Source of the DNA: Pelagibaculum spongiae
Lineage (GTDB): Bacteria; Pseudomonadota; Gammaproteobacteria; Enterobacterales; Pelagibaculaceae
DNA: 64,000 nucleotides
Direction of reading: 5' to 3'
Assembly: GCF_003097315.1 (NCBI RefSeq)
Contig: NZ_QDDL01000004.1
Span: 186,001 to 250,000, forward strand
Positions 5,538-45,600 of this stretch are shown here, piece after piece. Under the pieces are notes generated by a model, which ran no database searches, had not been told where the DNA came from, and was given only the letters and a program-made list of their open reading frames with translations. Both the position numbers and the translations under genes were made by a program. Positions within the stretch are counted from its first letter, which is position 1, and each line of letters starts with the position of its first letter.

Positions 5538-5764
5538 GCCCACCCTGTTAATTTCCTAACGACCCATTGAAGATATTTTGATGCGAGCGCTAGCTGGTAG
5601 GCATTACTACGCCAGCTATCCAATAATGTTTGCTGAAAAACCGTCGAATGAACACTGGTTTTGTCTTTGCAGACATTTTGGTGGACATTATTTTGATGCA
5701 TAATCGCCATAAGGCATTTTTTGGGGTGCAAAGAAAAAAGTTTGGCTGGCAGGGTTTTATTAAA
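5471..5764. repeat. Tandem repeat unit 1 (294 bp), starting inside the transposase 3' end
   Basis: First of three direct repeats. Its first 67 bases are the last codons and stop of the transposase gene; the rest is non-coding. It holds an imperfect palindrome at 5591-5618 (arms TAGCTGG and CCAGCTA) that includes a GTAG tetranucleotide. The period to unit 2 is 294 bases, and the first ~90 bases of both units look identical. Confidence 0.85.
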
Positions 5765-6068
5765 GTTCAAGCGACGTGCCCGAGAGCAATATAAATATAA
5801 AGAACAAAAGAAAGGGTTAGACCCCACCTAAGCCCACCCTGTTAATTTCCTAACGACCCACTGAAGATATTTTGATGCGAGCGCCAGCTGGTAGGCATTG
5901 CTGTGCCAGCTATTCAATGGTTTTTGCTTAAAAACCGTCGAGTAGACGATTGTTTTGTCTATGCAGACGTTTTAGTGGACATTATTTTGATGCATAATCG
6001 CTATAAAATGTTTTTTGAGGTTCAGAGAAAAAACTTTGGCTGGCAATAGTTAACTGCGATATATTGAA
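5765..6068. repeat. Tandem repeat unit 2 (304 bp)
   Basis: Second direct repeat, beginning with a copy of the transposase 3' coding tail including its stop codon but with no upstream transposase sequence. It contains the AGCTGG (5886-5891) / CCAGCT (5906-5911) palindrome. It differs from unit 1 by scattered substitutions. I see no credible gene on either strand. Confidence 0.85.
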
Positions 6069-6359
6069 GTTTAAGCGGCGTGCCAGAGCGCAATACAAAG
6101 AACAAAAGAAAAGGTTAGATCCCACCTAAAGCCATCCTGTTAATTTCCTAACGACCCATTGAAGATATTTTGATGCGAGCGCCAGCTGGTAGGCATTACT
6201 ACGCCAGCTATCCAATAATGTTTGCTGAAAAACCGTCGAATGAACACTTGTTTTGTCTATGCAGACGTTTTAGTGGACATTATTTTGATGCATAATCGCT
6301 ATAAAATGTTTTTTGTGGTTCAGAGAAAAAACTTTGGCTGGCAATAGTTAACTGCGATA
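6069..6359. repeat. Tandem repeat unit 3 (291 bp)
   Basis: Third direct repeat. The copy of the transposase tail is more diverged here (several substitutions and a short deletion), and the palindrome arms are AGCTGG (6184-6189) and CCAGCT (6204-6209). Its 3' half matches unit 2 closely through the shared ending AACTGCGATA. No gene is visible. Confidence 0.83.
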
Positions 6360-6658
6360 ATTAACTTAATGATCCAAGAAAATTTTTTCATTGAAGTGAT
6401 CCTGATGTGATTCAAGAGCCTAAATTGGCACACCCAAATATCTCCTCCAAATAATATATTGCAAAAGAATATCTAAGGCGAGTTACTTTAAGTAACCAGT
6501 TTTTTTTCAAAAAGAGCAAAATATCGCTGCCAGTTGAGTAAACAGGCTGTCAGTGAAATGTTACTATCAAACTCCCGTAGCAAAATAATAAAAATACGGA
6601 TGGCCAAGGAATTTCTGGCCGAAGCATGCCTGGATAACATAGGCTCGGGAGCAAGCTG
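6360..6658 (+). promoter_or_regulatory. AT-rich leader upstream of the NRPS operon, with a 15-bp palindrome
   Basis: A 299-base non-coding stretch between the repeat array and the first NRPS gene; it must hold the operon promoter unless transcription reads in from upstream. I find no convincing -35/-10 pair. A perfect palindrome, GTTACTTTAAGTAAC, lies at 6482-6496 and is followed within 5 bases by a run of eight T (about 6500-6507). This could be an operator or a weak intrinsic terminator acting as an attenuator. GGGAG at 6647-6651 is the ribosome-binding site of the first NRPS gene. Confidence 0.45.
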
Positions 6659-9600
6659 TTGAATAATAATAACAATGCTGAGTTTTCAATCGATGAATCT
6701 ATCGCGCTGTCTCTGGTGCAAACAGATACCTTCCTCGATGCAACTTTAAACCCAACATCACTGAAAAATAGCTCTGGCTATGCGTTGCGATTTGACGGTC
6801 AGGCTGACCTTGCCTACTGGCAGGCGGCGCTTGATAGGCTGGTTTCAAGTCAGGCGATATTAGGTGTCAGGCTGGATACTCAATCTGAGCAGCCATTTCT
6901 CTCAGTTACTGATACCCACCATTCGCTAGTGTTGATAACGGCTGAGACTAATCAGCCTCAGGAATTGCTAAATTCCCTTATTTATCGCAATTATGATTTG
7001 CATTGTGAGCCGATGCTCGGCCATTGGTTAGTGCAAGCACCTGACTGTTATCATTTGGTGATTACTGCACATCATTTATTGCTCGATGGGCCTTCTTTAG
7101 GAATTCATGCGCGGCTATTAATTCAAGCAGCTAATCAGCCGGATGATTTACCGAAAATCTCTACGCTAGCTATGCCGCAAGGGAACTTTAATTCCCATGA
7201 GACGCTGGCGTTCTGGAAATCTGAGCTTGCTCAAGTTGAGCCGCTGCACATTTCCAATCCAGCGTTCAGTCAGACGGCTACTTTATTGAATAACCCTGCA
7301 AACACCCAAGTTAGCGCGGTTGCCACTAATGCATCTGAACCGTTGCATTTGAAGGCGGGCCAGAGAATTTGTGAGCAATTACCTTTTGATGCTGTAGCTT
7401 GGCAGCAAGTTAAAGATTATTGTCGCAGCAAAAAAATAACCCCAGCATTTTATTTTAAATGTCTATTTGGGCTGTTGATTCAATATCACCAGCAAGCAGA
7501 GCAAGACTTTGCGATCACCGAAATCCATGATGGGCGTGATCAGCATAATCGCAATGATCTGGGGTGTTTTACTCGCCAACAGCCGTTTTTGTTTCAGGCA
7601 TCGCAAATCACTGCAGAATCGAGTTTTTCTGATTGGTTGCTAGCTGCCAGAATCCATCAAAAGCGAGCTAAGCCTTTTTTAAAATTATCACCGTCGGCCA
7701 TTACGCATTTACCGATGGCTAGCGACACTTTGTTTGCATTTAATTTTAATAATTTTGTGCCGGTAATGAGTCATCAGGGGCAATCTGTTGCAGTCACTAT
7801 TTTTACGCCGCAAATGCCAAATCTGGTGCAGGGATATGTACACACTGCAGAAACAACCGGCCGCTTTGAATTAATTTACAATTCACAACAATTTAGTTCC
7901 AACCATTTTGTCGAGCGAATGGCCTTGATTCACCAGCAGATTGTCTCTGGTGTTGAGCGATTAGATAAGCTGAATTGGTTGTTAGCAGATGAAGTTGATT
8001 CGTTAGATGCCAGCTGGCAAGCAAACTTTTCGGCTGATGATTGCCTGATTGAGCGTTTCTATCAAACAGCAGAAAAATTCCCCAACCATATCGCGCTAAC
8101 CGATAGCAGTGGTTCCACTTGTTCTGAGCTGACCTATTCTCAATTGATAATACAGGTTAATCAGTTGGCGCAGGCATTGCGGTTCAACCTTGATTGCGGC
8201 CATTTTGATCACAATCAGCTTGATAATCGCGCTTCATCTAGCGATCAATTAATTGGCTTATGTGTCAATCGTGGCTCGCAACAAATAATTGCTATGCTAG
8301 CCATATTAAAAGCAGGTTATGGTTATGTGCCGCTTGATCCGCAATCTCCATTGCAGCGAATTGAATTGATTGCTGAAGATGCAGATCTACAGTTGTTGCT
8401 TACCGACCAACCATTAACATTGAAAACTGCTTGCCGCCAGCTGACATTAGATCAGTGCTTACAACAACCTGTTTCTGAAATAGAAAAAAAACAGCCAAGC
8501 CCTCAGCTGAAACCCAATCCGCAATCAATTGCTTATGTGATCTACACCTCAGGTACCACCGGTAAGCCTAAAGGTGTGCCGATCTCGCATTCCGCTGTGA
8601 TGTCGTTATTTGATGCCAGTGAAGGCTTATTTAGTTTTAGCGATAAAGATTGCTGGAGCCAGTTTCACTCGATAGCGTTTGATTTTTCTATTTGGGAAAT
8701 TTGGGGCGCTTTTTTATATGGCGGAAAATTAGCCTTAGTCCCTGAAGACGCGAGGCAAAATCCGCAGCTGTTTGCTGACTGGTTGATTGAAAGTCAGGTG
8801 ACTTGTCTTAGTCAAACGCCAGGTGCATTTAAAAGGGTTGCTAATTGTCTTGTTGAAGGGCAGAAATCAGGCGATTTACGCCATATTCATTTTGGTGGTG
8901 AAGCGCTGGAGCTGGATAGTTTAATCGCATGGAATAATGAGTTTGGTTTAGCTACGCCATGTCTGACTAATTTATATGGCATTACCGAAACCACAGTTCA
9001 TGTGACTTATAAATCAATTTCAGAAGAAGATTTGGCGAGCAATCAAAGTCGAATCGGGCAACCGTTGCCGCATCTATCGGTTAGGCTGCGTGATGCACTT
9101 AACCGTAAGGTGGCGCCTGGTATTGTTGGAGAAATCCAAGTGTCGGGAGCCAGCTTGTCTGGCGGCTACCTCAATCGGCCAGAATTGAATCAGCAAAAAT
9201 TTATCGAAGATTTAGTGAATGGTGGTACAGGCGTAGCCCGTTGGTACCGTAGTGGTGATTTGGCTCGAATGGATGCATTGAAAAGTGAGCAAGCTGATTA
9301 TCAATTAACCTATCTTGGACGCTCAGATCAGCAGATTAAGCTGCGTGGGTATCGAATTGAAATTGGCGAGATAGTTGCTCAGTTAAGAAACTCTAATTTA
9401 GTTGCTGATGCCGCAGTGGTATTAACCGGCAAGGCCGATGCCGCGCAGTTAATTGCCTATGCCGTGGCTGATGGTGAAGTATCTGAAGCCATAGATAATC
9501 CGAAACTATCTAATCCGAAACTATCTAATTCTCAACTATCACAGCAAGTTTTAACCTCACTGCAAGCGTCGCTGCCGCTGTACATGTTGCCTGCCCAGAT

Positions 9601-10159
9601 TATCTGGTTAGATCAGTTGCCGCTAACCATTAATGGCAAGCTGGATAAATCAGCACTACCTTCAGCCGTTGATTCATCGAAATCTGCCAAAAGCGATTTT
9701 CAGCCAAATGCCGAGTTACCTCAAAGCAGTATTGAAAAATCAATTGCTCGGATTTGGCAAAAAGTACTACAGCGGAAAAATATTAATCTGCAAGATCATT
9801 TTTTCCGTCTCGGTGGACATTCATTGCAGGCCGCGCAATCGATTAGCGAGTTGAATGCAAAGTTTGAGCTGACGATGCCGATGACGCTGATATTCAAGTT
9901 CCCTTTATTGCAAGACCTAGCATGGGAAGTTGAAAGGGAATTAACCGAAGCTTTTTATCGTGATGATCCCAAGCCGTTTATTTTACAAGCAGCGATTGCC
10001 AGAAAAGCCCGGCGAATTGAAAAAGAAAAATTACAAGCGCTGGAAAAAAAGGGTAGGCGGGTTAAATCATCGCTAAGACCAAAACCTGAGCTAACAGCTG
10101 AACCGAAAGCACCTGCAGCGGTTCAGTCTGACCAGCAGCGAGAGGTATTTGAACTGTGA
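6659..10159 (+). CDS. NRPS protein 1: C*-A-T, Thr-like specificity
   Basis: A 1166-residue one-module synthetase, first of six. Domains: a divergent condensation-superfamily domain (C*, about residues 10-450, HHLLLDG at 138-144, GR and GCF motifs), an adenylation domain (about 465-990; TSGTTGKPKG from 630, YGITETT at 773, NGKLDK near the end), and a carrier domain with phosphopantetheine Ser1055 in LGGHSLQ. My hand-read A-domain code is DFWSHGLVHK, close to the Thr code DFWNIGMVHK. A basic, charged tail ends in EVFEL, a likely docking motif. The TTG start at 6659 is the only usable one: an in-frame stop lies at 6635 and GGGAG sits 7 bases upstream. With no canonical C domain in front, it probably loads the first residue. 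Its stop overlaps the next gene by 4 bases (GTGA). Confidence 0.92.
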   Translation: MNNNNNAEFSIDESIALSLVQTDTFLDATLNPTSLKNSSGYALRFDGQADLAYWQAALDRLVSSQAILGVRLDTQSEQPFLSVTDTHHSLVLITAETNQPQELLNSLIYRNYDLHCEPMLGHWLVQAPDCYHLVITAHHLLLDGPSLGIHARLLIQAANQPDDLPKISTLAMPQGNFNSHETLAFWKSELAQVEPLHISNPAFSQTATLLNNPANTQVSAVATNASEPLHLKAGQRICEQLPFDAVAWQQVKDYCRSKKITPAFYFKCLFGLLIQYHQQAEQDFAITEIHDGRDQHNRNDLGCFTRQQPFLFQASQITAESSFSDWLLAARIHQKRAKPFLKLSPSAITHLPMASDTLFAFNFNNFVPVMSHQGQSVAVTIFTPQMPNLVQGYVHTAETTGRFELIYNSQQFSSNHFVERMALIHQQIVSGVERLDKLNWLLADEVDSLDASWQANFSADDCLIERFYQTAEKFPNHIALTDSSGSTCSELTYSQLIIQVNQLAQALRFNLDCGHFDHNQLDNRASSSDQLIGLCVNRGSQQIIAMLAILKAGYGYVPLDPQSPLQRIELIAEDADLQLLLTDQPLTLKTACRQLTLDQCLQQPVSEIEKKQPSPQLKPNPQSIAYVIYTSGTTGKPKGVPISHSAVMSLFDASEGLFSFSDKDCWSQFHSIAFDFSIWEIWGAFLYGGKLALVPEDARQNPQLFADWLIESQVTCLSQTPGAFKRVANCLVEGQKSGDLRHIHFGGEALELDSLIAWNNEFGLATPCLTNLYGITETTVHVTYKSISEEDLASNQSRIGQPLPHLSVRLRDALNRKVAPGIVGEIQVSGASLSGGYLNRPELNQQKFIEDLVNGGTGVARWYRSGDLARMDALKSEQADYQLTYLGRSDQQIKLRGYRIEIGEIVAQLRNSNLVADAAVVLTGKADAAQLIAYAVADGEVSEAIDNPKLSNPKLSNSQLSQQVLTSLQASLPLYMLPAQIIWLDQLPLTINGKLDKSALPSAVDSSKSAKSDFQPNAELPQSSIEKSIARIWQKVLQRKNINLQDHFFRLGGHSLQAAQSISELNAKFELTMPMTLIFKFPLLQDLAWEVERELTEAFYRDDPKPFILQAAIARKARRIEKEKLQALEKKGRRVKSSLRPKPELTAEPKAPAAVQSDQQREVFEL
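6686..8008 (+). other. C* domain 1 (divergent condensation-superfamily domain, N-terminal)
   Basis: Retains HHLLLDG (from base 7070) but has EIHDGR then GCFTRQQPF where normal C domains have the GTPVAGR..IGFFVN block, and a later FAFNFNNF motif. It is the only C* with no canonical C domain before it. Boundaries are approximate. Confidence 0.7.
9497..9541 (+). repeat. Three 15-bp coding repeats in NRPS gene 1
   Basis: Units at 9497, 9512 and 9527 encode NPKLS, NPKLS and NSQLS in a loop of the A-domain C-terminal subdomain. The first two units are identical at DNA level and the third is diverged. This is an in-frame slippage-type expansion with no obvious functional meaning. Confidence 0.75.
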
Positions 10160-13100
10160 GCGCACAACAATTACTAGAAAGCTTGCGTCAGAAAGGGGTC
10201 AAGGTCTGGCTGGAAGCTGACAAAATTAAATTGGATGCACCGCAAGGAGCGATTGACGCTGCTTTATTTGAGCAGCTAAAAGCCAATAAAGCACAGCTGA
10301 CTGATTTGTTACGTGCCGATTCGGCCGCTGAAGTTACAAAGCCTGCGGTTAGCAGAAAAGCCTCCAATCGATCTGCGATGACGATTCAGGTTGGCGATTA
10401 TCAGCAAGGTTGGCAGTTGTCTCCGCTACAACATCGATTGTGGCTGCATCAGCAAATTAATCCTTCCGATACCAGTTACAACATGCTGGGTGCCTGGGAT
10501 ATTGCCGGGGATTTACAGCCTCAATTAATGCTGCAGGCTTTTGAGCAATTAATTGAGCGGCAACACATTCTCTCTAGTTGTATTCGCGCTCAAGCTAGCC
10601 ATGGCTTTGCTGAAAAATCGCGGCAACTTTTTAAACTACAGCAAATTGATTTTTCTGCGCTTTCAGAATCAAAGCAACAGTTGAAATGGCAAACGGCGCT
10701 ACAGCAGCAATCTAATACGCCTTTTGTGTTGGAACAACAATTACCGATTCGTGCGGTATTGGCAAAATTTGCCAATAATCGCTGGAGTTTATCGGTGTGC
10801 TTGCATCATGTAGTGGCTGATGGTTGGTCCATTGCCTGCTTAATTGACCAGTTATCTCAGCTTTACAGTCAGCAAACGCTACCTGAATTGCAGTACCAAT
10901 ATTCAGATTATGCTCGCTGGCAGAATGCCCAGTTAGCTGACGCTGCGGCGAACAATTCAGCAGATGACAAAGCATTCTGGTCAAACTACCTGCAAAATAT
11001 CGAGCCACTTGAATTGCCCTCTGGCCTCAATGCGGCCCAGCAGTCTAGGCAATCTGCAAAAGCAGGTCAGTTAAAGCTCAAGCTAGATCCCATTCAATTG
11101 CAGCAGCTCCAGCAGTTTGCTAGTGAACAAGGTACAACACTTTATTTGGCGGCGGTTTCGGTATTTCAAACCCTATTGTATCGCTATAGCGAGCACTCAG
11201 ATATTACGCTGATCAGCCCGATAACCGATCGACCAGATCCGGCGTTGACCAATTTGATTGGCTGTTTTATCAATACCTTACCGTTTAGATCTAATGTAAC
11301 AGCAGACCTAACATTTAAGCAGTTGTTGCAGCGTAATCTGAGCTACTTTGAAAATATATTACAGCATCAGCATTTACCGTTTGATCAACTTCAGCAAGCC
11401 TTGAATCAACAAGGCTCTAGCTTAGAAAGTGCTGAAAAAGCGATTTGTTTTGTGGTACAGAATGCGCCGAGCAGTCAGCTAACGCTTAACAATCAAAATG
11501 GTGCAGCACTAAAACTGACCGCAATCGATATTGCCAATCAGGCGGCTAAGTTTGGTTTAACCCTGCAACTGTTTGTTGATCCACAAGCGCCTTATCTTGA
11601 GCTGGAATACCATCCACAGATGCTTTCAGAAATGATGGCCCAGCGGCTGGTCCAGCATTTCAGCCAGTTAATCACTGTGATGGTCGCTGACCCGGATAAA
11701 CCACTCGGCAAAATTAACTATTTAAATCAAGCTGAGCAAAAGTGGCTATTGGCGCAAGATGGGCCAAAGAATCCGTATCCAGATTGCAGTTTGGTTGAGC
11801 GCTTTGAGCGGGCAGCCAAAAAATACCCACAAAATACAGCGCTCACTTTTGAAAACCAGTCATTAAATTACCAAGACCTTTTACTGCAGGTAAATGGCTT
11901 GGCGGATTGGTTGCTTGAGCAAAAATTAATTCCAGGCGATCGGGTGGCGCTTTATCTGCCAAGAAGCATTGAATTAGTAATGACCACTTTGGGATTGGCT
12001 CGGGCTGGTTTGGTTGCAGTGCCTTTGGATCCGACTTATCCAGTTGCGCGACTACAGCAAATGGCCAACCAAGCTGAAGTAACGGCATTGCTGATTGGTG
12101 ACCAAGATCTCGAGTTTGCGCCAGAATTACGTCGCATTGAATTACCGCACCATGATTTTGTGCAAACCATACTGGCTCGCGAACAGTCAAAAACCCCATT
12201 TCCTGCTGCCGATGATTCGCTGTATATCATGTTCACTTCTGGTTCGACTGGCGTGCCCAAGGGTATCGAAGTCAGTCATCAAAATGTGATGCGACTGGCG
12301 TGTAATAATACCTTTGCCAACACTGGTTCAGGTGTCTCGGTGTTGCAATATGCACCGGTGGCATTTGACGCATCGACTTTTGAAATCTGGAATAGCTTAC
12401 TCAATGGTGCGCGATTGGTTATCGCACCAGCAAAAACATTGTCAGCATCAGAGTTAGGCCAGTTAATTTCCGAGCAAAAAATAGATGTGTTGTGGCTGAC
12501 GGCGGCATTATTTCATCAGCTGGTGGATCAAAATTCTGAGATTTTCTCTGGCGTTACCCAGCTGTTAACCGGCGGTGATGTGGTGTCGGCTTCACGGGTA
12601 AAATCGTTACTGAAAAAATTCCCAAAGCTGATTATTTCTAATGGCTACGGCCCAACAGAAAACACCACTTTTACCACGGTTCATCATTTAAAATCGGCTG
12701 AACAAGTCGATACGCCATTACCGATCGGCAAGCCGATTGCTAATACATCGGTTCGGGTATTAGACCCACGTGGAATGCCAGTCGCGATAGGTATTGCTGG
12801 AGAATTATGGGCCGGAGGTGGTGGTGTTGCTAAAGGTTATATTAATGCTGCAGATTTAACCGCTAAGGCTTTTGTTTCACAAACCACGTCATCTCAGGCA
12901 CAGATTTGGTATCGCACGGGTGATTTGGTTAGCTGGCGGGAAGACGGCGTACTTAATTATCATGGCCGAATTGACCAGCAAGTTAAAATTCGTGGTTTTC
13001 GAATTGAGCCCGCCGAAATTGAACAGCAAATTAATCGCTTGCCCGGGGTTAAAAACTGCTGCGTTTTACCGGTAAAAGATCCAAGAACTACCTCCGATGA

Positions 13101-16966: not shown

Positions 16967-19900
16967 ATGAGCAATGACCAGTTGAAACAGCGGCTGGCGG
17001 GGCTGTCTGAAGCACAGCGCCGTCACCTGCTGCAAAAGCTGCGACAGCAGCAAAGTCAGACTGCTAGTCGCCAGCAAAAAAATGCTGCAGTTACCCAATC
17101 TAATGTTATTCCAGCCCAAATTGAGGCTGAAGATTACCCCTTGTCGTTTGCCCAGCAACGAATGTGGTTTATTGACCAAATGAGCGATCATCGGGAAGCA
17201 TTAAATATCCCGTTGATTTTGCATTTAACCGGCCAGTTGAATGTTGCTGCGCTTGAACAATCGTTAAAGATTTTAGTTGGGCGGCATTCGATGCTGCGGG
17301 CCAATTTTATTCATCATCACGGTGAAGCACGGCTTAAGCTGCAAACTGCGGGAAAATTCGAATTACATCAAGAAGATTTATCGCACCATGCAACGCCAGA
17401 AATACTGGCCAAAGAACACGCACGCTTAGAAGCAGCAACGCCTTTTGACTTAATTCATCAATTGCCGTTTCGGGCACGTTTGCTGCAGCTCTCGCTAGAT
17501 AAAAATCAGCAGCAGTATTGGTTATTACTCACGGTACATCATATCGTTGCTGATGGTGCTTCTATGGAAGTATTAGTGAGTGAATTGTCTCAGCTTTATC
17601 AGCAATTAGTTGCGAAAAAACCGACTGAACTTGCTTCATTACCATTGCAATATACCGACTACAGCGTTTGGCAGCGGTCGCTTGCCGAAAAAGGTGAGTT
17701 TGCTAAAGAACTAGAATGGTGGAGAAGTCAGCTTAAGGATTTACCCGAGTTGCTGCGGCTGCGTACCGATCATTCTCGTCCTGTTCAGCCATCCGGTAAG
17801 GGCGCTATTTTTCATTTTCCGCTAAACAATCGATTGTTAGACTCTCTACAGCAGCTGGCTTTGGATCAAAATTCAACGCTATTTATGCTGCTGCTGAGTG
17901 GTTTTCAGGGGATATTATCCCGCTGGAGTGATCAATCTGAAATTGCAGTGGCTATTCCAGGTAGTGGCAGAAGTCATACCCAGTTAGAGCCGCTGGTAGG
18001 CTGCTTTGTTAATTCATTGGTTGCCCACGCCTCGGTGGCAGAAAATCCAACGCTAGAGCAGTTAAATCAACAAACTAGCGAGCGGGTAAAGCAAGTATTC
18101 AATCATCAACAACTTCCGTTTGATTTGCTGATTGACCAGCTAGGTATCACACGCAAATCCTCCCATGCCCCGTTAGTTCAGGTTGGCTTTGGTATGAGTC
18201 GTGATCCGCAAATGCCGCAGTTACCAGGCCTTGAATTACAAATTAAAGAACCAGAACGCGCCACCGCAAAGTACGATTTATTGCTGATGGCGCGGCAAAA
18301 GTCGACCGGCGTTGAATTGTCGGTTGAATATTCAACTGATCTTTATCAGCAGTCGTCGATTGAACTAATGGCGCAGCAGTACCAAAACCTGTTGCAGGCG
18401 ATGGTTGAAATACCCAAAGCGTTACTTGCTTCCGTGCCGCTTTGGGATGGTATCGATCTGGCTAAAAGATTAAACCCGACTGCGATTAGCTCTGATCAAT
18501 CAATTAATCCGATGCTGCCTTTGACACAAATGCAGCGTGATTTATATCTAGAAAGCTCTCTTAATCGCGATGGTCTCGTTAATTCAGTCGGTGTCTATGC
18601 TGAAACTGACTATCAGATTGATCCGACGCTTTGGCAGCAGGCGGTTCAGCAGGTTTCTGATGCACACCCATCAATGCGTAGTTCGGTATTTAAATGTGAT
18701 CTACCCGGCGCTGATGTTGCTTACCAACAAGAAAATAACTCCTGGCCGATAGAGTTTCGATTTGACCAACTCGCAGCCGATCAGCTTCAGATTTGGCTTA
18801 ATCAACAAGTTAAGCAGCCATGGGATTTACACAATAATCGTCCACCAGTTCGTTTCGGCCTGATTCACCTAGATAATGGTAAAAGTGTTTGCTGGTTAGC
18901 GATCCATCATATGTTTTCTGATGGTTTCTCTATGATGGCGATGTTGAAACAACAGATTAAATGCTATCGCGGCGAAACCTTGCAGGTTGATGATTATTTC
19001 CAACAAGACGTCGCGCAGCTTAATCAGCAAATGGATACCGCTGAAATACTCGACTATTGGAAGCCATTATTGGAAAGCTGTGAGCCCTTGCAGCCAGATG
19101 AAAATTCTGCTGGTAAGCCAGAGCGGGTTGACCTCGAATATAAGCTGGATAATCAGCACTGGCGGCAAATTCAAAACTATTGCCAGCAGCTTTCAATACA
19201 TCCTTCAGTTTATTTCCGCTACATCTATGCCTTATTGTTGAAAATGCTTTGCCGCAGTGAAGAAAATTTCCAACTGCTGGATGTTCACCATGGCAGGCTA
19301 AAAGAGCAAATGCAGCATTTAGGCTGTTACTTTCAGCAAGTGCCTTTAGTTATTGAAAATAGTTGGCTAGAGCCAGAAAACAAAACCGTTAGCCAAGGCA
19401 TGTTGCAACTGGCGCAAGCGATTCGCCAAGTAGCGCCTTATCGAAAAATTTCTGTTTTACGCCAGCATCAATTATCTGACAGTGGTCGTTTGAACTTCAT
19501 GTTCAACTTCTATAGTTTTAAAAATCAGCTTGATATTTCAGGAGAAAATCTTGATGCAAAATTTATCAATCCTGATGTGCCTGAGCTGGTTGAGCTGATT
19601 GTCGAGCCTGAATCTGATGTGGCCGCTGAGCTGCAAAACCTTCGATTAAGCCTTAAATTCGTCGAATCTGAATTTGCCGATCGTAATTTATTACAACGGA
19701 TCGATGGTATCAGTCGACAAATTCTTGCTGGTACTGAGCAGCTTTCTCAATTGCAATGGATCAGTGCAGAAGAACAAAAGCAGCAGATTGAATCTTGGAA
19801 CCAGCAAGTAGAATCTCCGTGGCAAGAAGATATCGGGCAGAGATTTAATCGGGTTGCTATCGAGCATGGCGCTCGAACCGCGGTTAGTTTTGTCGATCAA

Positions 19901-22900: not shown

Positions 22901-25900
22901 GGTGGATTAAACTGGCGAGATGCCATGTTTGAACAAACACTGATGCATTCCATGGTTGAAAACTTTAAAAAGCTTTTGCAAAGCATTTGTTTGCAACCAC
23001 AGCAGCCTTTGCGGCAGTTAAATTATCTATCGGACCATGATCGGTTAAATAAACGCCAAATCATTAATCCTCAAACTGCTAAAAGCAGCTTGAATTGGAC
23101 TGCCGCGCAATTACTCGCCATGCAGTGTGAAAGTTACCCTGGCAGAAGTGCAATTCGCTTTGATGGCGTTGAATTGCAATTCCATGAATTAAACCAGCGA
23201 GCACAAGCTTTGGCCGATTGGTTATTGGAGCAGGGGATTTACCCAGGAAGTACCGTGGCAATTGATATGCCGCTAGATGAATGTTTTGTGGTATCGGTTA
23301 TCGCCATGTGGAAAATTGGTGCTATTCCGTTGCCATTAGATGGATTAACCCCTGATCCGAACAATCAGGCAGCACTTGCCGTTGCCAATTTGCTGTTAAC
23401 TGACTGGCAGCGCCGAGATAGGTTTGCCCTCAGTTGTTCGTCGGTTGCGATCGACTTGCACCATTTGCCTTTGGCGGGGAATGAGCAGCCGCTTCAAGTT
23501 ATTGAGCATCGCTTATGGTCATTGTTGAGCGATGGAGCGATCCAGCAAATTGATACCGTCGAACTGATACCGGCATTAGAGCAAATTCGACAAACGCTGC
23601 AATGTGGTCAAGACCATCCAGATACCTTGGCGTTAACACATGATCAGCAATCAATTGATTTTATATTGCAATTTTCAATGCTGTTATTCGGTGATTGCTT
23701 GCAATTAGACATGTTTGAAAGTGATCAGCTGCAGCTCGGAAAAATTGCCAAGGTCGATGTTTTGCCGCTTGATCAACAGCAGTTATTCGAATTTTCACCA
23801 CAAATTCAACAACAACTTAAACAACAATCCAATTTATCTATTTGGTTAAACCTGAATCAGTCGATCAATCCGGCTTTGCTTGAATTACCACTGGCGATAA
23901 AGCAATCCTGCCATTTATCATTAGTTAAAAAGAACGGTCAGTTGCTTGGCTTTGCTGAATATCAACCGCAAGACAGATGTTTTGAGTTGCAAGCGGCGGT
24001 TGGTCAAACATTGCAGGTAAGTGATTCTGCTGGACAGCCGATACCTGCATTCGCGATTGGCTATTTAAACCAACAGCTAGATTTGCAGCCGAATCAGAGT
24101 GAAGTTTTACCAATTCTGGTTCGACAGCATCAAGATAAACTTCTGTTGTTGGCCGATGTTGTCAGTGTTAGTGAATCCGAATCATCTTTATCGGATCAGC
24201 ATCAGCAGCAAGCCACTTCAGCAGAACAAATCTGGTTAGAAGGGCCGCTAGAGCAGCAAATTGCCAGTATTTGGCAGCCTTTGTTGCAGCTAGAAAACTT
24301 GCCAGATCGACGGGCTAATTTCTTTTTAATTGGTGGTCATTCATTGCTGGCCAGTCAGGTAGTGGCGCGGCTTAAAAAGCAGCTGTCACTCGCGATTTCT
24401 TTGAAAATGCTATTTGATCATCCGGTATTGGCAGATTTTGCAGAGCAGATTTCGGCATTACAACAATCAACAATATTGCAAGAAACAGGTTTCACTGATC
24501 GACCGGCTTTGTTGCCAACCGGTGAAACGCAAGGACCGTTGTCTTGGGCCCAGCAACGATTATGGTTTGTGCAGCAGATGGATCTTGATGATCCGGCATA
24601 TAACATGCCTGCCGCAGTGAAGCTAACCGGTCGATTAAATATTGCAGCGTTAAATCAGGCGGTATTTAAGCTGCTTGAAAGACACCAAGTGCTCAGAAGT
24701 TATTTTTCAGTTCACAATAATCAGCCGCTGCAAAAAATTCTGCCTAATGAATTTTCTGAAATTCCGCTATTAGATTTAACCACGCTTAGCCAAGCGAGCA
24801 TTGAGCAGGAACAACAGAGAATCCTGCAGCGAGAAGCAGAAAAACCATTTGATTTACAACGTGGGCCGTTAATTCGAGTGCAGTTGGTTAAGTTAACTGC
24901 AAAACAACATATTTTGCAGTTAACGGTTCATCACATTGCTGCCGATGGCTGGTCAATTGATCTGTTGTTAAAAGAGATCAGCGAAGGTTATCTGGCGGCT
25001 TGTGAAAACAGATCGCCTGAATTGCCAGCGTTGCCGGTTCAGTACCTTGATTTCTCGCTGTGGCAAAGAAGTTGGCTTGATCAGCAGCAGTTACAACAAC
25101 AGCTCGATTATTGGAAAAACCAGTTACAAGATGCACCAGCATTATTGAGTATGCCGCTGGATCGACCTCGATCGGATGTTACTGACCGCACCGCTGATAC
25201 GGTTGAGTTTTCGGTATCGCCTAACCTATCCCAGCAATTGGTTTCACTGGCCAAGCAGCAAAATGTCACGCCTTATATGTTGATGTTGTCCAGTTGGCAA
25301 ATGCTGCTAGCGCGTTGGACAGATCAGTCTGATATTTGTATTGGTGTGCCGGAAGCCGGGCGTAATTTACCGGAGCTTGAGCCGTTGATTGGCTGCTTTG
25401 TTAATGCGCAGATTATTCGCCAGCAATTTAAGGGAAACCCTTCCTTTATCCAAAGCCTGCAACAGACCCGGCTAGCGGTAATGGGTGCCTTGTCTAACAG
25501 CGAAGCGCCCATCGATATGGTGATTGATGCTTTGGCGGTGGAACGCAGCAAGCATTACGAGCCGCTGGCACAAAGTGGTTTTTCTTGGTTAAGCCAAGGG
25601 CCGTTGCAATTGCAGATGGATCAATTGCAGGTTGAGTCACTGCAAGTGTTTACCGGTCGGGCCAAATACGATTTGATTATGGCGCTCGGCCTTGATCAGC
25701 AAGGGCAGTTGCAAGGTGCCTTGGAATATTGCACCGGTTTGTTTAATCGCTCTAGCATGCAGCGCTTGTTAGATGCCTGGCAATTATTGTTGGCGCAATT
25801 GGTTGAAATGCCAGAAATTACTTTGCAGCGATTGGCGTTGGATTCAGCCGATACTTCAGGCATGCCGCTAAGCCCCGTGCAACGAGATTTAGCGCTACAA

Positions 25901-28900
25901 AGTCTGCGAGATCCGCAAAGCCAATCAAATAGTTTTGGTTTAGTTTTGCCGTTGCCACGTTTATTAGATCCACAAACCTTGCAACAGGCATTGGATCAAT
26001 TAATTCAACATCAGCCTTATTTAAACCATCGATTATACAATCGAAAAGAGCTATGGAATGGGCCGTTATGGTTATCGCCTTCGCAGCAAAGCTTGACCGT
26101 GCAATCGTTGGATTGGCGTCATTTTTATTATGATCAGTCGACCTTAATCGACCATGCAGAGCAGTTAATTCGCCAGCCATGGCAGGTAATTGATCAGCCG
26201 CTATTTCAGATTGGCCATATATTGACTGATCAATGCAGTTATCTGTTACTGCGAAATCATCATTTATTGGTTGATGGTATTGGCTGTGTGCAGATTGCCC
26301 AGCAATTAATCGATTGTTATCAGGCGCTGGAAAACAATAATCCGATTGAACTGCCGCAACCGATGATTGCCGATGACATGCGTTTGCTACGGCAGATCAC
26401 CGATCAGAGCGAGCATCTTGAGTTTTGGCAACAAGCGCTTGCTAACAGTGAAGCGGCAACTTTGCTTAAAAAGCCGCTGCCAGCCGCAATAACAGCTGAA
26501 GTTGAATCTGGATTAAAGCCACAGCGAAAATTAATTCGAGTCGATTTGAACAAGCAGCTTTGGTTGGATGTTCAGCAAGCGGCTGAGCAGCAAAATGTAT
26601 CGCTTCCAAATTTATGTCGGGCCATTTATGCCTTGCAAATTCAATCGGTAACCCATGCGCAACATGATTTCTGTTTGACCGAATTTGCTTCGGGCAGAAC
26701 AATCGAACAATTAACCGCTGCCGGTTGTTATTATCAGCCAGTGCCTTGTTTGATTGAACATGATTGGTTGGCTGGCGATAACACAATTACTGAGTTGGCG
26801 AATCAAATTCGCTTGTCTCGTCGCCAAGGGCAAAAGCATTTACCGATTAGCCCAATGGCACAAAAACAACTTGTGAATGCTGGCCAAGCTGGCTTTATGT
26901 TTAACTTTATTAACTTCTTGCAAGGTATTGAATTTGAGAGAAATAGCTTGCCGTTTGTTGATTTTTCACCTTCAGTGGATGGACAAACTCAGCTGGTATT
27001 AAAGGCGCAAGAAAATTCGCTGGAAATGCAGTTGTATTGCGATGCAGATTTTGCCGCCGAGCAATGGTTGCAGCAAATGGAATCTTTACTGGGACAGTTT
27101 GTTGCAGCACATGCCGAGCAACAAACTTTGACGTTGTCTGATTTGCAGATGTGCCTGCCCAATAGCCTGCTCAGTAAGACACAGAACAATGCTGCAATTT
27201 ATGATGCAAGAGAAATGGCTCAGTCAGTCAATTTAGTTGCAAGTATTTCTCAGCAATTTACTGAAAGCGCAGCAAAACATTCCAATAACATTGTAATTGA
27301 ATCGTCACAAGGCTCATTAACATATCAGCAATTTGCACAGCAAGTGGCTCGCTTTGCTGTGCTATTGCAGCAACAGGGCGTTACTAGTGGTGATCGAATA
27401 GCAATTTGTGGTGATTTAACCAGTGAATTACTGGCTAGTATTATGGCGGTGATTGGTTGTGGTGCCAGTTACTTGCCGATTGATGCATCGATTCCGGTCG
27501 GTCGTATTCAACAAATAATTGAAGATGCACAACCGACATTAATTATTTGTCAGCCAGATAAATTACCTGAGCTGACGAGGCTAGTGACGGAGTTAGCCCC
27601 AGAGCAATTAATTTCACCTGTTCAACTGCTTAGTTTTGATCAGTTGTCTGCCCAGGCGGCGGCATTAACGAGTAGTCAGTCACAATTAGATAATTGGAAT
27701 GCACCAGATACCAATTCACTGACACCGCTTTATGCGATTTTCACTTCTGGTTCAACCGGTCGGCCTAAGGGTGCTCAGGTTCGCCGTGATAGTTTTATAA
27801 ACCTTCTTAATTGGTATCTCAATGATGCTGGGTTAGACCAGCAACAAACATTGTTACCTATCTCCAGTATTGGCTTTGATCTGACCCAGAAAAACCTGAT
27901 TGCTCCGCTTTTGGCTGGTGCCAAACTAGTTCTACCGACGACTGCTAGCTATGACCTGCTGCAAATCCGACAGTTGATCGAACAGCATAAAGTCAGTTGG
28001 CTGAACTGTGCGCCGAGTGCTTTTTATCCGTTGCTTGAAAGTGACTTAGAAGGTGGTCTGCAAACGATTGCTTCGATTAAAACACTGGTGCTGGGTGGCG
28101 AAGCGGTGCAGCTTTCTCGATTAAAAGATTGGCTGGTTAGCAATCAGACTCGATTGATTAATAGCTATGGCCCGACTGAAGCTACTGATGTGGTTTGTTA
28201 CAGCGAATTATCTGGGCAACAGTTAGTTGACCAACAATATATAACGCTAGGTCAGCCAATCTCTGGAGTGAAATTGCAAGTTTGCGATGGTCAGCAACGT
28301 GTTTTGGCGCAAGGTATGATTGGTGAATTGGTTATTTCTGGTATTGCGGTCGGTGACGGCTATATCGGTCAGAATCAATTAACCGAGCAGAGTTTTCCGT
28401 TAATTAATGGTGAAAAGTGTTATCTCACCGGTGATTTAGGTTGGATGGAAAATAATCGATTCCATTATCTGCGTCGTCGTGATTTCCAGTTAAAGCTTAA
28501 TGGTTTACGGATGGAACCAGGAGAGATTGAGCAAAGGGTGCAGCAGCTGGATGGCATTATTGAAGCCATCGTACAGCCGCAAGATAATTTGCTGGGTTGT
28601 TGGGTATTGCTAGATACCAAAACAGCCACCCCTGAAACCAGTCAGATAATGACGCATTTACGCCAGTATTTACCGGATTATATGGTCCCTGCGTTTTTTG
28701 TTGCGCTTGATCATTGGCCATTAAATGCCAGTGGCAAGGTTGATCGAAAGTCGTTACCGGCACCGCAACAGGCTGAAGTGGAAAACATTCCGCCAACAAC
28801 TGAATTACAAGTAGATTTGGCGGCGATCTGGTGTGAACTGTTAGGGGTCACCGAAGTTTCTATTAATCAGGACTTTTTCCAGTTAGGTGGTCATTCGCTG

Positions 28901-39603: not shown

Positions 39604-39634
39604 CCACAGCGTTTTGAAAAAATAATAACAATAT

Positions 39635-39658
39635 AGCGACTCGGACTACCGGGTCGCT
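39635..39658 (+). promoter_or_regulatory. Strong intergenic hairpin between NRPS genes 4 and 5
   Basis: Arms AGCGACTCGG (39635-39644) and CCGGGTCGCT (39649-39658) form a 10-bp stem with one G-U wobble and the loop ACTA. It lies in the 79-base gap before gene 5, the longest gap in the operon. No T-run follows, so intrinsic termination is unlikely. mRNA stabilisation, processing or separation of translation are possible. The gene 5 ribosome-binding site AGGGA follows at 39672-39676. Confidence 0.6.
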
Positions 39659-39682
39659 GCAAGACGCTTGTAGGGAATCAGT

Positions 39683-42600
39683 ATGGGCAGTGTGCTGGAG
39701 TTGATCGCTCAGGCAGGGCGTGCAGGAATTCGTTTGTGGGTTGAGCAGCTAGATAGCAGTTCTCCATGGCAACTTAAGTTTCGTGCGCCTAAAGGCGCCA
39801 TGACTGCTGAATTAAAACAGCAGCTCAAAGCAAACAAACAATTATTAATTGATTTTTTAGCGGATCAGCTGACTTCTCAGCAAAACCCCATTCAAAATAG
39901 TATTGTTAAAGCTGAAGTGGCTGAAAATGGTTTACTGCCATTATCTTTTGCCCAGCAAAGAATGTGGTTTCTGTATCGATTGCAGCCAGAGTCTTACTCA
40001 TACAACATGCCATTTGGCATTAAGCTCACCGGTGATTTAAACCTTGCTGCATTGACCGCTTCAGTCGAAGCCTTAACTCAGCGGCACAGTTTGCTCAGCG
40101 CAAGATTCCAAGAAGCTGATGGCCAGCCATGGTTGACGGTCGGGCATCCAAGTAACGCTTTAGCGTTAGAAGATCTATCCAATCATATTGATCCGGTTAA
40201 AGCCGCTGATCAGCAAGCTTTGGCTGAGATGCACCATCAATTTGATTTGCTACAAGCTGCGCCTTTCCGCGCCAGATTAATTAAAGTTGCCGATAAGAAG
40301 CATCTGCTATTGCTGACCTTGCACCATATTATCGGTGATGGTTGGTCGACGCGTGTGCTGATGAATGAATTGGCGGCGTTATATCAGAGTCAGCTTTCAG
40401 GCGCTCCAGCCAATTTGTCTGAATTGTCGATTCAATATCCCGACTTTTCTGTATGGCAAAAAAACTGGTTGAGTGGCGATCGATTAGATAAGCAGTTGGG
40501 CTACTGGAAAAATAAACTTAATCATTTACCTGCGCTTAAATTACCAGAATCTAATGCGCAAGCAGATTCGCTCGATATAGCGGGTGGTCATCTCTCTAGT
40601 CAATTGAGCTTGCAGCAAACTAGTCGGATTAAGGCTTTTTGTCGTGAACAGCAAATAACACCCTTCATGTTATTGCTGGCGTGCTGGCAATTATTATTGC
40701 ATCGAGTCTCAGGGCAATCAGATTTTGCCAGCGGCACTCCAGTGGCCGGAAGAAACCATAAAGAATTAGAAGGTTTGATCGGGTTCTTCGTTAACACATT
40801 GGTTTTACGTGCTGATTTTTCAGGCAATTTAACCGTGGTTGAATTGCTGCAGCAAGTAAAAAAAACCATGTTGGATGCCCAAGAGCATCAGGATGTTCCA
40901 TTTGAAAAAATGGTCGATCATTTGTTGCCTGAGCGGCAAATCGGTGAAAGCCCGTTTTTCCAGAATATGTTTATTCTGCAAACTCGAAACGCCAGTTTGC
41001 AGCAAGCCGATGCTTCAACGGCTCAAGCTTCTCAGAATGGAGCTTCTGATCAGCTGCAGATAGAACCATTGCCGGCACGGCGCGATACTTCAAACTTTGA
41101 TTTGATATTTCATATTGCCGACTCCGATGCATATAAAATTGATTTGTTGTGGCGTAAGGCAAAAATCAGTCAAGTGCTTGCCCAGCAGTTATTAAATGCC
41201 TATCAGCCGTTATTGCTGCGGATGATCGATCAACCACAGCAAAGCCTAGTCAATCTGAGTACTGAAACCGATCAGCAGTTAGTTTCGCCAATGCAGCGCG
41301 ATATTTGGTTGTCCAGCCAACAGCAACCAGATTCGCTGCAAAATACCTTGGGTTATGCGGCGCATTTACATGCCGATGTAAATATCGAGCTTTGGCAGCA
41401 AAGCCTGCAAATGGATGCCGATCATTTCTCGGTGCTGCGCAGCGGTTTTGTTGCTGGAGCGGGTCAAGAATTAGCTTTTGCAAAAACATCGGGTAGCCCG
41501 TTTGCTTTTGCATTCCATGATTTCCAATCGCTGCAATTAACCGAAACTGCGCTTAAATCGCGGATCAATCAGTTTATTGAACGGCCCTTTGATATTGAGG
41601 CAGGCACCCCGCAAGCTTTAATGGCCAATCAATTGTGGCAAATTAGCCCCAATCATTTCGTGACCGTTTTCACCTCGCACCATGCCTTGATGGATGGTGC
41701 TGCCGGTATGGCGCACTTGCAGCGGATCATCGAACGTTACCAATCATTAATTGACGGCTCTATTGCCGATTTTGAGATTGGATTGCCAGCAGATTTGCAT
41801 TCACAAATGGTGCTGGAGCAACGAGCAGCAACTGATAGAGCGGACGCGATTGAATTCTGGCAAGCTAAGTTAGCCAATGCGCAAGGTTTGAGTTTCCGCA
41901 AGCCGTTGCTATTTGATAAGGGCGCTGGAGGGAGTGCTGAAGATTTCCTGCCAAATGGTTCTGAAGTAAATAACGATCCACAAAACAATTTAGATCGTGT
42001 TGAAAAAACACTGAAGTTGGATGCGGTGCATATTCAAGCGCTGCGTAAATATTGCCGACAAAATCTAATTACACCGGCAATTTATTTCCAGGGCTTGTAC
42101 GGATTATTGATTGCCCATTATTGCCGGGCAGACGCTGACTTTGCGATCAGTGAATTCCACTCAGGCCGTAACCGTAGCAATGCAGATCAGCCTGGTTGTT
42201 ATTACCAACTGGCACCGTTTATATTCAACCATCAAGCGTTGAATTCAAATTCAGTCGACGATTTATGGCAGTGGTTATCTAGCGAGCGCAAGTCGCTCAA
42301 GCAAGCCGGTAGCTTGTCGATTCTCAAGCAACAGCAATTGCTGCCGCAATCTGAAATTGGCTTTAGTTACAACTTCTTAAACTTCATGCCCCAGTTGAGC
42401 TTTGCTGGGCAAGCGATTGATATTGTTCGTAGAACGCCGCTAGCTAATGGTCAGGTTCAGCTATTGGTCGAACTGGTTAAAGATCATCTGGCGCTTTATC
42501 TCGATTATTCATCAAATGATTTTAGCGACTTAAACTTGCTCGATCGTTTGGCACATATCTCGGCGCAATTGCTCGGAATTTCTGAAAATGATCATCAGCA

Positions 42601-45600
42601 AAACAGAGCAATCGAATCACTTAACCAGTTAAGTTTCTTGCTGCCAGATGAAATCCAATCAAATAAAAACAAGCTGTTGGGCGAGCAGAGCCAGCCGTTA
42701 AATGACGATGTTCAGCTGCGTTTTGAAGCCCAAGCTGAACAGTCTGCTAAATCAATTGCGGTCATCTGTGGCGAACAACAACTGAGTTATTTGCAACTCA
42801 ATCAGCAAGCCAACCAGCTTGCGCATTACTTAAATCAACGCGGAGTCAAAGCCGGTGATACGGTGGCGATTTGTTTGCCGCGCTGCATTGAATGGCCAAT
42901 GGCGATATTGGCCATTATCAAATCCGGTGCTGCTTACTTGCCGATGGATGCTGATATTCCAGTTAAGCGAAAGCAATATATGGTTGAAGATTCATCGGCC
43001 AAATTATTGATTGATTGCGACTGGTTAGCGGCAAATTCAGCAGAATTAACGACCTTACCAACCAGCAGTTTACCATCTGCCGCGCAGGCATCTGATGCCT
43101 TTTACCAGGTGTATACCTCTGGCTCGACCGGCCAACCAAAAGGTGCCGCAGTTAGCCGGGGTAATATTCAGAACCTGCATAGTTGGTTCACCCGCCAGTA
43201 TCAGATTGCGAGCACTGACAAATCGCTATTAGTCAGCGCTTTCGGTTTTGATTTAACCCAGAAGAATTTACTGGCGGTGCTATTACAGGGCGGCACCTTG
43301 GTGATTCCAGATATGACGGTGTTTGAACCAAAAGTCATATTGGATACCGCACAACAGCAGCAAATCACATTAATTAACGCGGCACCGAGCGCTTTTTATC
43401 CGTTAGTTGAAGACCAAAATCACTGGCCGCAACTAGCCAGCTTGCGCCAGCTGTGGTTAGGCGGAGAACCAATTGCCGCCAATCGTTTACAGGCTTGGTT
43501 GGCCAGTGACAATTGCAACACCCAAATTGATAATACTTACGGCCCCACCGAATGTGCCGATATCACCACATTTGAGCGTATCGATTTTGCCGAAGTCGCT
43601 GACCAAGGCGCCATGGCGCTAGGTCGGCCAATTGATGGTTTGCAATTACAAGTCGTCGATAGCCAATTACGACCGGTAATACCCGGTTTAGCCGGTGAAT
43701 TAGTGATTGCCGGTGCCAGCCTTGGATTAGGTTATCCGGCAGATGCAGCAAAAACCGATCAGGTATTTGTCAGCGATACAAACAACCAAACAGTGTATCG
43801 AACCGGAGATTTAGTCCGTCAGTGGTTAATCGAAAACGGTGAAACTGAGGGTCGCTTGGAATATCTCAACCGAATCGATTTCCAAATTAAATTACGCGGC
43901 ATGCGAATTGAACCGGCGGAAATTGAAGCGGCAATTTCAAGCTTGCCTGGCGTTAGCGACAGTCGTGTTCTGGTCGATAAAAACAATCAAACCGAACAGC
44001 TGCGCAGCTGGGTGGTTGGTGATCAAACTGTGATTGCCGAATTAATCGAGCAGGGCAGTTGGCGCACAAATCTGGCCGAAAGTTTGCCATTGCATATGAT
44101 TCCGGCCAGTTTTGAATATTTGGCGCAATGGCCGTTAACTGCCAATGGCAAGGTTGATCGCAAAGCATTGCTAGCGACGACGATCGAGCAAAAATCACAA
44201 AAAATTGAATTGCCGCAGGGTGAAGTTGAACAAAAGCTCGCTACTATTTGGCAGCAATTATTGCCCGGTTTAGAAATAGGCCGAGAGATTGGCAGAAACA
44301 GTCATTTCTTTGAAATAGGTGGTCATTCGCTGCTGGCAGTTCAGTTAGCGTCACGGATTCGTGATCAATTCCAGCAAGAGCTGCCGCTACGGCAATTGTT
44401 TGAAGCGCCAACTTTGCAGCAGCAGGCGCAATTAATTCAAAAGATCAGTGCTAATTCGAATGCGGGTTTACCTGCATTAGTCGCTCAAGTTCGTCCAGCA
44501 CAAATCCCTCTGTCATTTGCCCAACAGCGCCTGTGGTTTATTGAACAATTAAATCCAGCTTCGGCGGCCTACCATATGCCAGCGGCGCTTGAACTTGATG
44601 GTGAAGTGAATGTTACTGCGTTGGAACAAGCTTTTTTGGCATTAATCCAGCAGCAGGAAATTTTGCGAACTCGTCTGCCGCAGGCCAATGGCCAAGCGTG
44701 GCAAGAAATTGCTGAAGCGCCGGATAATTGGACGCTGCCAATCAGTCAGTTCAATGCAGATGTTTCCGAGGCGCAATTACAACAGCAGGTGAAGCAAAAA
44801 CTGGCGCAGCCTTTTGATTTTGTTAATGGCCCCTTGTGGCGTGCTGAATTAATTAAAATTGCTGACAATGCAAGGCACAGTAATAAGGGTCACGGCAATA
44901 CAAGCAAGCCACGACATATTTTATTGTTGTGTATGCATCATATTATTTCAGATGGTTGGTCGATTAGTCGTCTGACGGAAAGCCTTGCCTACAGCTATCA
45001 AGAATATCTCCAGCAGCAGTCGGTTCAATTGCCTGCGCTGACAGTTCAATACGCAGATTTTTCAATCTGGCAAAGAACTTGGCTAGACAAACAACAGCTG
45101 GAGCTGCAAACAGCCTATTGGTCACAGCAACTATCGGGTATTGAAAATCTCCACCTGAATACTGATTTTAATCGACCAAAACAGATAAATTCTACCGGCG
45201 CTAGCCATGAATTCATTATTTCAAAGCGGTTGTCGAACCGTTTAACTCGCCTGTTGCAGCAGCAAAACGCCACCTTATTCCACGGCTTGCTGGCTAGCTG
45301 GCAGCTGCTATTGAGCAAGTTGACTGGGCAAAGTGATTTTGCCACCGGAACGCCGGTTGCCGGGCGCGAGCATAGTCAGCTAGAACCGTTAATTGGATTC
45401 TTCGTTAATACGTTGGCATTGCGTAGTGATTTTTCCGAGCAACCTAGCTTTGTTGATTTAATCCAGCGCTGTAAAAACACCATGTTGGATGCGCAACAGC
45501 ATCAGCACTTATCGTTTGAAAAGCTAGTCGATGAGTTATCGATTGAGCGTAATTTGCAACAAACGCCAATTTTTCAGAACCTACTGGTGCTGCAAAATAC

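Follow-up and report, generated by a model that had tools for sequence, protein, structure and literature searches.

A lone C* domain that opens a Pelagibaculum spongiae peptide synthetase cluster belongs to a separate condensation-domain clade and probably acts on the residue of the module that contains it

Background

Nonribosomal peptide synthesis has the condensation (C) domain superfamily as its catalytic core. The known branches of this superfamily are elongation, starter, epimerising (E), cyclising (Cy), X, interface, modAA and terminal, each of which marks a distinct role. Within a window of 64,000 nucleotides from Pelagibaculum spongiae (the whole stretch analysed; contig NZ_QDDL01000004.1, positions 186,001 to 250,000), a synthetase cluster carries a further C-type domain, here referred to as C*, and the first protein of the assembly line begins with a C* that stands alone before an adenylation (A) and a carrier (T) domain. 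What, then, does a C-type domain do in a first module that has no peptide to extend? Product predictors would likely misread C* as a second elongation domain or overlook it. The lone C*-A-T protein has 1166 residues, and neither a second C domain that would compete nor a carrier that would serve as donor; it is a clean place to test the function of the C* family, and its C* seems to act on the module's own amino acid and not to join amino acids.

Protein 1 and the assembly line

The preliminary description of this DNA had read protein 1 as C*-A-T, a reading borne out by the Pfam domains and by a closed upstream frame. The order of the Pfam matches, Condensation (residues 15-195; weak, 34.8 bits against a cut-off of 30.6), AMP-binding (468-838) and PP-binding (1029-1088), gives the C*-A-T layout, and a stop codon at 6635-6637 shuts the frame on its upstream side, so that the N-terminus is missing no C domain. 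The stretch 6659-8008 marked out earlier corresponds to the C* domain (residues 1-450), which stands at the very start of the protein. The features of protein 1 are as follows.

6647..6651, + strand: GGGAG, read by eye as the likely ribosome-binding site for protein 1, ending 7 nt before the TTG
6659..10159, + strand: protein 1, initiation module C*-A-T, 1166 aa, TTG start, without an N-terminal docking domain
6659..8017, + strand: lone C* domain 1 (Pfam, C* profile, AF2 model)
7070..7090, + strand: HHLLLDG catalytic motif of C* 1, intact (residues 138-144)
8018..9667, + strand: module 1 adenylation domain, code DFWSHGLVH, Thr-like
9743..9922, + strand: module 1 carrier (T) domain (Pfam PP-binding)

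The three nearest A domains of the set to that of module 1 are all Thr types, at 38-44% identity. An AF2 model of C* 1, built with 53 rows (six of the seven cluster C* domains and 47 of 51 from L022-L045), has a mean pLDDT of 89 and a complete C-domain fold. By its Pfam match, its fold (Z up to 32.4) and its HHxxxDG motif, C* 1 is a member of the PF00668 superfamily.

The cluster consists of six synthetases with 16 carrier domains and seven C* domains. One point calls for correction: the cluster extends beyond the window, protein 6 ending at about 67539 and C* 7 straddling the boundary. Downstream of protein 1 the relevant features are these.

10168..10314, + strand: N-terminal TubC_N docking domain of protein 2, presumed receiver of protein 1's product
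10405..11748, + strand: canonical C domain of protein 2, the first in the assembly line
18449..19777, + strand: C* 2, in C-C*-A[Thr]-T, protein 3
25844..27217, + strand: C* 3, in C-C*-A[Hse]-T, protein 3
41264..42649, + strand: C* 4, in C-C*-A[Hse-like]-T, protein 5
49058..50512, + strand: C* 5, in C-C*-A[Hse-like]-T, protein 5
55526..56911, + strand: C* 6, in C-C*-A[Hse-like]-T, protein 5, sharing 99% identity with C* 4
63604..64000, + strand: C* 7, protein 6, extending past the window to about 64941

Protein 2 is C-A-T-C-A-T; protein 3 is C-C*-A-T, C-(degenerate A)-T, C-C*-A-T; protein 4 is made of three C-A-T modules; protein 5 is C-C*-A-T, C-A-T, C-C*-A-T, C-T without A, C-C*-A-T and a final C; and protein 6 is A-T, C-C*-A-T-TE, the TE being read by eye. 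The codes of the A domains that follow C* are Thr-like in protein 1, Thr once, and homoserine (Hse) or homoserine-like five times (DLKNVGSDV, DLKNWGTDI), while one Thr module of the cluster, module 2 of protein 2, has no C*. All codes given here are predicted by comparison with a GrsA fragment, and the Dab, Leu and Gln assignments used below are presumed. Two papers list DLKNVGSDVK and DLKNLGTDVK as Hse/Hsl codes (PMC12283262) and DLKNFGSDVK as an Hse code (PMC7524897), and the Thr and Ser codes found here resemble those in the former.

Several irregular modules are also encountered. C* 4 and C* 6 (41264-42649 and 55526-56911) share 99% identity, and over the part compared their A domains do not differ, which suggests that a module of protein 5 was recently duplicated or underwent gene conversion. 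In protein 3, residues 2036-2440 (about 23070-24290) form a degenerate adenylation domain of which the N-terminal part alone is recognisable. Residues 4250-4770 of protein 5 (about 52430-53990) form the C-T module that has no adenylation domain; modules of this kind are also seen in HdN1 (open reading frame 36727-46770 of the joined stretch) and in locus L045, and loading of a carrier in trans may thus be a recurring trait.

Search for an upstream donor

That protein 1 has neither an upstream donor carrier nor a canonical C domain, as had been noted for the window, holds across the genome (4.99 Mb, 99.9% complete) for PF00668 and PF00550. All 23 genome-wide matches to PF00668, the condensation family, lie inside the present cluster (23/23), as do 16 of the 17 matches to PF00550, the carrier family. 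The seventeenth is an 81-aa open frame at C4:300186, which most simply would be the acyl carrier protein (ACP) of fatty-acid synthesis. This genome-wide search with the two families found no second synthetase able to feed protein 1. TubC_N docking domains are present in proteins 2, 4, 5 and 6 and absent from proteins 1 and 3. It is barely credible that C* 1 takes over a chain for protein 1 from another synthetase or a dedicated acyl carrier elsewhere: the one 81-aa carrier protein could be cited for such feeding, but the 99.9% complete genome holds no further C-domain match and protein 1 lacks a docking domain. Should the ACP serve as an acyl donor, this would be a case of the acyltransferase explanation considered below.

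C* as a branch of the condensation superfamily

With a profile built from the seven C* domains of the cluster, the canonical C domains beside them (15) score 55-88 bits and the C* domains listed in other genomes 330-406 bits, a split that makes the C* label more than a product of chance. At an E-value of 1e-35 the scores in C*-bearing genomes range from 143 to 406 bits, and one further C* (L024) reaches only 95 bits in local scoring. When at most four candidates per genome were scored in 369 genomes of the class, three genomes besides that of P. spongiae matched at 330-406 bits, the next score being 99 bits among the matches listed; with at most five per genome in 295 genomes of the order, P. 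spongiae alone had such matches, the others scoring at most 114 bits among the matches listed. Fifteen C-type domains from weak-match loci fall outside the C* clade in the tree. A search of named genomes yielded 24 loci, from Ketobacter, gamma proteobacterium HdN1, the BD1-7 clade, several Pseudomonadales and other MAGs, one of them labelled Desulfobacterales; the patterns used to find these loci were peptides from four C* domains of Hse type, a choice that may bias the set towards Hse modules.

From the named loci and class matches come 60 C* domains with a length of 380 residues or more, and the cluster's seven bring the total to 67. These 67 domains and the 59 + 8 modules discussed below are overlapping, not identical, sets. 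The 95-bit domain of L024 and one split C* of L041, both shorter than 380 residues, are counted as modules only, and Cs1660 of L045 (no A domain) and the C* of L058 (code unread) as domains only. The counts omit one C* of L030 that is truncated, C* domains cut off by the end of a locus and A domains that lie on a locus edge, and the codes of L027 and L040 were read on four letters only. As judged by profile and tree, C* is a discrete and rarely encountered C-domain subfamily that occurs in other Gammaproteobacteria too, and within the searches made it looks like an undescribed branch of the superfamily. A literature search covering few subscription journals, and thus a weak negative, found no paper describing homoserine modules of the C-C*-A-T type. 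Among the C*-bearing genomes, one of 2.6 Mb (G411) has open frames of 12141 and 12077 aa with C* on its contigs C30 and C34.

Comparison of C* 1 with lipo-initiation starter domains had been proposed as a check, and C* 1 falls outside the starter clade. In three quick trees with 39, 35 and 30 C* rows the C* clade has a support of 100, and in the one with 35 rows five E domains form a separate clade (100) that excludes C*. In a careful tree with 22 C* rows the clade is supported at 100/100, apart from the starter, E and canonical C references; the starters (RzmA, RS21175, ObiF and CDA, the four starter references used) and the E domains form clades of their own at 100/100 each, although here the long starter and E branches meet and the bootstrap had not settled. 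A modest rejection is obtained in the AU test when C* 1 is held with the starters (p 0.037); p is 0.016 when C* 1 and three other lone C* are placed with the starters, and a single clade of C* 1 and these three is not rejected (p 0.51). C* 1 groups with internal C* domains of L027 and L038 (96/94), and all five lone C* of Leu type fall into a single clade. Comparisons with domains of known structure run the same way: a Mycetohabitans starter domain finds RzmA, ObiF, CDA and EntF first (475, 181, 157 and 137 bits), and the C* profile finds BacC, McyB and PvdL first, with elongation types above starters, RzmA at 55.6 bits and the modAA domain of AmbE at 41.9 bits.

Membership of C* 1 in the starter clade is thus disfavoured by three quick trees, one careful tree and the AU test (p 0.037). 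That C* 1 is an ordinary lipo-initiation starter is very unlikely: the Cs-A-T layout at the start of a chain and the missing docking domain would suit it, but the four starter references and C* occupy separate clades of support 100 and their best structure matches differ (RzmA for the Mycetohabitans starter, BacC for the C* profile). By descent, as read from these trees, C* is not a starter domain, which is compatible with a starter-like function. The preliminary description had also weighed the case in which another synthetase feeds protein 1 and C* 1 clusters with starters; what was found is a genome with no other C-domain protein and a C* 1 placed in a separate clade.

Position and substrates of C* modules

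Within the 67 domains, 59 come after a canonical C domain of the same protein and eight, C* 1 included, stand alone at a protein N-terminus. Since 59 of the 67 have a canonical C domain alongside, peptide bonds need no C*; being second to a canonical C in these proteins and, in C* 1, without a donor, C* is not a canonical LCL or DCL elongation domain. In five loci (L032, L040, L041, L043 and L044) the gene preceding the lone-C* gene ends in a thioesterase-like region (GxSxG, by eye), and no docking domain was seen by eye in the lone-C* proteins of these loci. The lone C*-A-T layout therefore seems, from such gene order, to recur as a chain start, five of the eight following a thioesterase-like end.

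The predicted substrates differ sharply between module types. All 59 C-C*-A modules with a readable code specify a residue with a side-chain hydroxyl or amine (Hse 53, Dab 4, Thr 2), whereas the plain C-A modules of these loci do so in five of 26 cases (Hse 3, Thr 1, Ser 1); the Fisher p of 1.5e-15 is inflated by related rows, the C* of L022 and L047 being identical. The lone C* modules have another range, with five Leu-type codes and one each of Gln, Ser and Thr-like. The pattern of predicted codes in C-C*-A modules indicates that C* acts on the residue of its own module, and the three Hse modules without C* among the 26 indicate that C* is unneeded for the activation of Hse. A tailoring step is suggested by the tie to Hse, Dab and Thr together with the retained active site.

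Catalytic residues and fold

The HHxxxDG motif is kept throughout C*, with the second His in 66 of 67 domains, the Asp in 67 of 67 and the Gly in 65 of 67; the sole exception at the second His is one HdN1 C* in which the motif is lost (HESVMDS). That C* is a non-catalytic remnant with a structural or gatekeeping role is quite improbable. Its optional nature, with Hse and Thr modules that lack it, and the motif loss in HdN1 are what such a remnant might show, but the near-complete retention of His and Asp and the clean tie to substrate type argue against it.

Residues conserved specifically in C* are E288, C255, F359 and N362 (numbering of C* 1), and position 288, near the place of the catalytic Glu of E domains, is E or D in 61 of the 67. 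These features, together with the intact HHxxxDG and the leaving hydroxyl offered by Thr and Hse, could be taken to mean that C* dehydrates, cyclises or epimerises its own residue in the manner of modAA, Cy or E domains. This is improbable, as C* also occurs on Dab, Leu and Gln modules, lies outside the E clade, finds the AmbE modAA domain at only 41.9 bits and has its Glu one residue off the E-domain spacing (by eye).

Among 107 canonical-type C domains, 86 have Trp directly after HHxxxDG; none of the 67 C* and none of the three starters compared does. In RzmA, according to PMC7804268, the helix after the motif borders the acyl pocket and R148, three residues past the Gly, sets the chain length; this position is Leu in C* 1 and Gly in C* 4 to 6. 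A VIA search with the C* 1 model returned as top match the RzmA starter bound to octanoyl-CoA (Z 32.4), with other C domains within about 1 Z, and a Foldseek search placed elongation C domains (LgrA, SrfA-C) on top and RzmA at rank 11. The X domain is absent from the best 50 VIA rows and stands 30th in Foldseek, neither of which is informative. As C-domain subtypes score alike, fold search does not separate functions for C*, and the non-Trp residue and the RzmA match of the modelled domain are suggestive only as hints of acyl transfer.

Proposed function of C*

We give nearly even weight to the reading that C* 1 acts on the residue of its own module, probably as an acyltransferase, and does not form a peptide bond. 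Here C* 1 would belong to a separate condensation-superfamily clade that acts on the residue held by its own module's carrier, and the donor would be soluble, either acyl-CoA or the acyl carrier protein of the genome. In internal modules the alpha-amine would be used by the canonical C domain, leaving the side-chain hydroxyl or amine of homoserine, Thr or Dab to be acylated. In the first module, where no C domain competes, the Thr-like residue could be acylated on its alpha-amine (or hydroxyl), and the product would bear an acylated first residue. Acylation of a free nucleophile predicts residues with a hydroxyl or amine in internal modules and any side chain in a first module, and so fits the pattern of codes. 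Counting against acyl transfer are the placement of C* 1 apart from the acyl-CoA-using starters and the elongation C domains at the top of the Foldseek search, which also outscore starters with the C* profile; further, the internal C* rows are not independent, many coming from related clusters, and the residues conserved in C* alone are not explained by acyl transfer.

The earlier suggestion that C* works on its own module's residue, which would make sense of a position at the first module, is upheld by the substrate pattern and by the N-terminal placing of lone C*; the acyl transfer, its donor and its site are what we infer beyond this. Starter-like acylation and own-residue action, set against each other in the preliminary description, may be one and the same thing. 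The broader proposal, that C* is a new in-line tailoring branch of acyltransferases acylating whichever nucleophile of its own residue is free, is put forward tentatively, as a possibility well short of even. If true, the side chains of homoserine, Thr and Dab would be acylated as the peptide is built, and the N-terminus where C* is alone in module 1, and the 16-module product of the present cluster could bear up to seven acyl groups.

The main alternative, though unlikely, is that C* is a recruitment platform, like an interface or X domain, which brings a stand-alone tailoring enzyme to the residue of its own module. A place directly before A and the use of a lone copy in the first module would fit, as would the tracking of specific residues by C*; interface domains are counted as a C subtype in PMC10212144 (and mentioned in PMC12230676), and TauD matches occur in seven of ten C* genomes searched, one or two in each, and in the P. 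spongiae genome. Against such recruitment, HdN1 (a complete genome) and the drafts G663 and G664 carry C* with no TauD match, the two TauD matches of P. spongiae lie on another contig (C1) with none in the cluster, and no oxygenase family was found in five upstream and nine downstream genes scanned, three of which could be assigned to no family. C* keeps an intact catalytic motif, which X domains do not according to PMC8949500 and PMC11546977; interface subtypes occur at pathway starts only, according to PMC10212144, but 59 of 67 C* are internal; and a lone C* with Leu or Gln codes suits a single tailoring chemistry poorly. A more specific candidate, C* as a TauD interface domain, is disfavoured by the three of ten C* genomes without TauD, a non-TauD partner being possible.

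Neighbouring genes

Downstream of protein 6 lies a gene for a 667-aa polytopic membrane protein (P0001; L001:14678-16681, about window 74895-76898), single-copy in its genome and rare. At an E-value of 1e-20 it matches in two of 185 class genomes, P. spongiae and G398, both C*-bearing. By contrast, 13 of 19 other C*-bearing genomes have it, G398 included, a link that is inflated by kinship among the genomes. Homologues directly follow a C* synthetase gene in L031, L033, L035 and L036, and lie within about 12 kb of C* on the same contig in HdN1, G662, G663, G664, G673 and G674; in the other seven of the 13 genomes the listed copies are on different contigs from the listed C*, many genomes being multi-copy. 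P0001 possibly acts on an exported homoserine-rich peptide. A GT-C glycosyltransferase was suspected from conserved acidic and aromatic residues, but no Pfam match above the cut-off and no PDB match at an E-value of 1 was obtained, and the model of a homologue has a pLDDT of 38, so that P0001 is assigned to no enzyme class.

An acyltransferase gene (P0002; L001:16683-18095) has no homologue at an E-value of 1e-3 in L013-L126 minus L072, and for this reason it is not seen as a conserved partner of C*. In L035 a wax ester synthase/DGAT-type acyltransferase (15421-16836) follows the membrane protein beside a C* synthetase. Further downstream of the cluster an AAA ATPase and a helicase (L001:18185-19783 and L002:74-3442) match the anti-phage models IetA and MkoA. 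On the other side, before protein 1, about three near-copies of a stretch of 300-350 bases are seen by eye at window positions 5520-6350, flanked by a transposase-like gene (4509-5537) with no Pfam match.

Comparison with known C-domain systems

Interface domains of beta-hydroxyaspartate siderophore synthetases were reportedly treated by Reitz in 2019. Like C*, an interface domain is a member of the C superfamily tied to the residue of its own module; by description the two are set apart in that the C* residue is Hse and not Asp or His, and in the internal position of 59 of 67 C*. Codes for Asp or His are absent from all 67 C* modules whose code is readable.

The X domain (Tcp12, 4TX2) of glycopeptide synthetases is, like C*, an accessory domain with a C fold. 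According to PMC8949500 and PMC11546977 it lies between the last T and the TE and has a degenerate HRxxxDD, whereas C* lies before A with its motif intact. This position before A holds for all C* but one, in L045, where the A domain is missing, and it differs from that of E domains, which lie after T, so that C* is not placed among these.

The starter Cs domains (RzmA, CdaPS1) share with C* 1 the opening of a first synthetase as Cs-A-T, an intact HHxxxDG and the C-domain fold, and with C* in general the lack of Trp after the motif (three starters compared). They differ in forming a separate clade of support 100, and in that C* is mostly internal, beside a canonical C. The icosalide synthetase has two Cstart domains, in modules 1 and 3, as given in PMC8949500. 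C* forms a clade other than the starters tested, the icosalide domains being compared by description only. The icosalide Cstart builds a beta-hydroxy acid into the chain, whereas C* pairs with Hse, Dab and Thr. In the terms of that description, the internal starter of icosalide resembles what is proposed here for C*, namely an acylating C-type domain within an assembly line.
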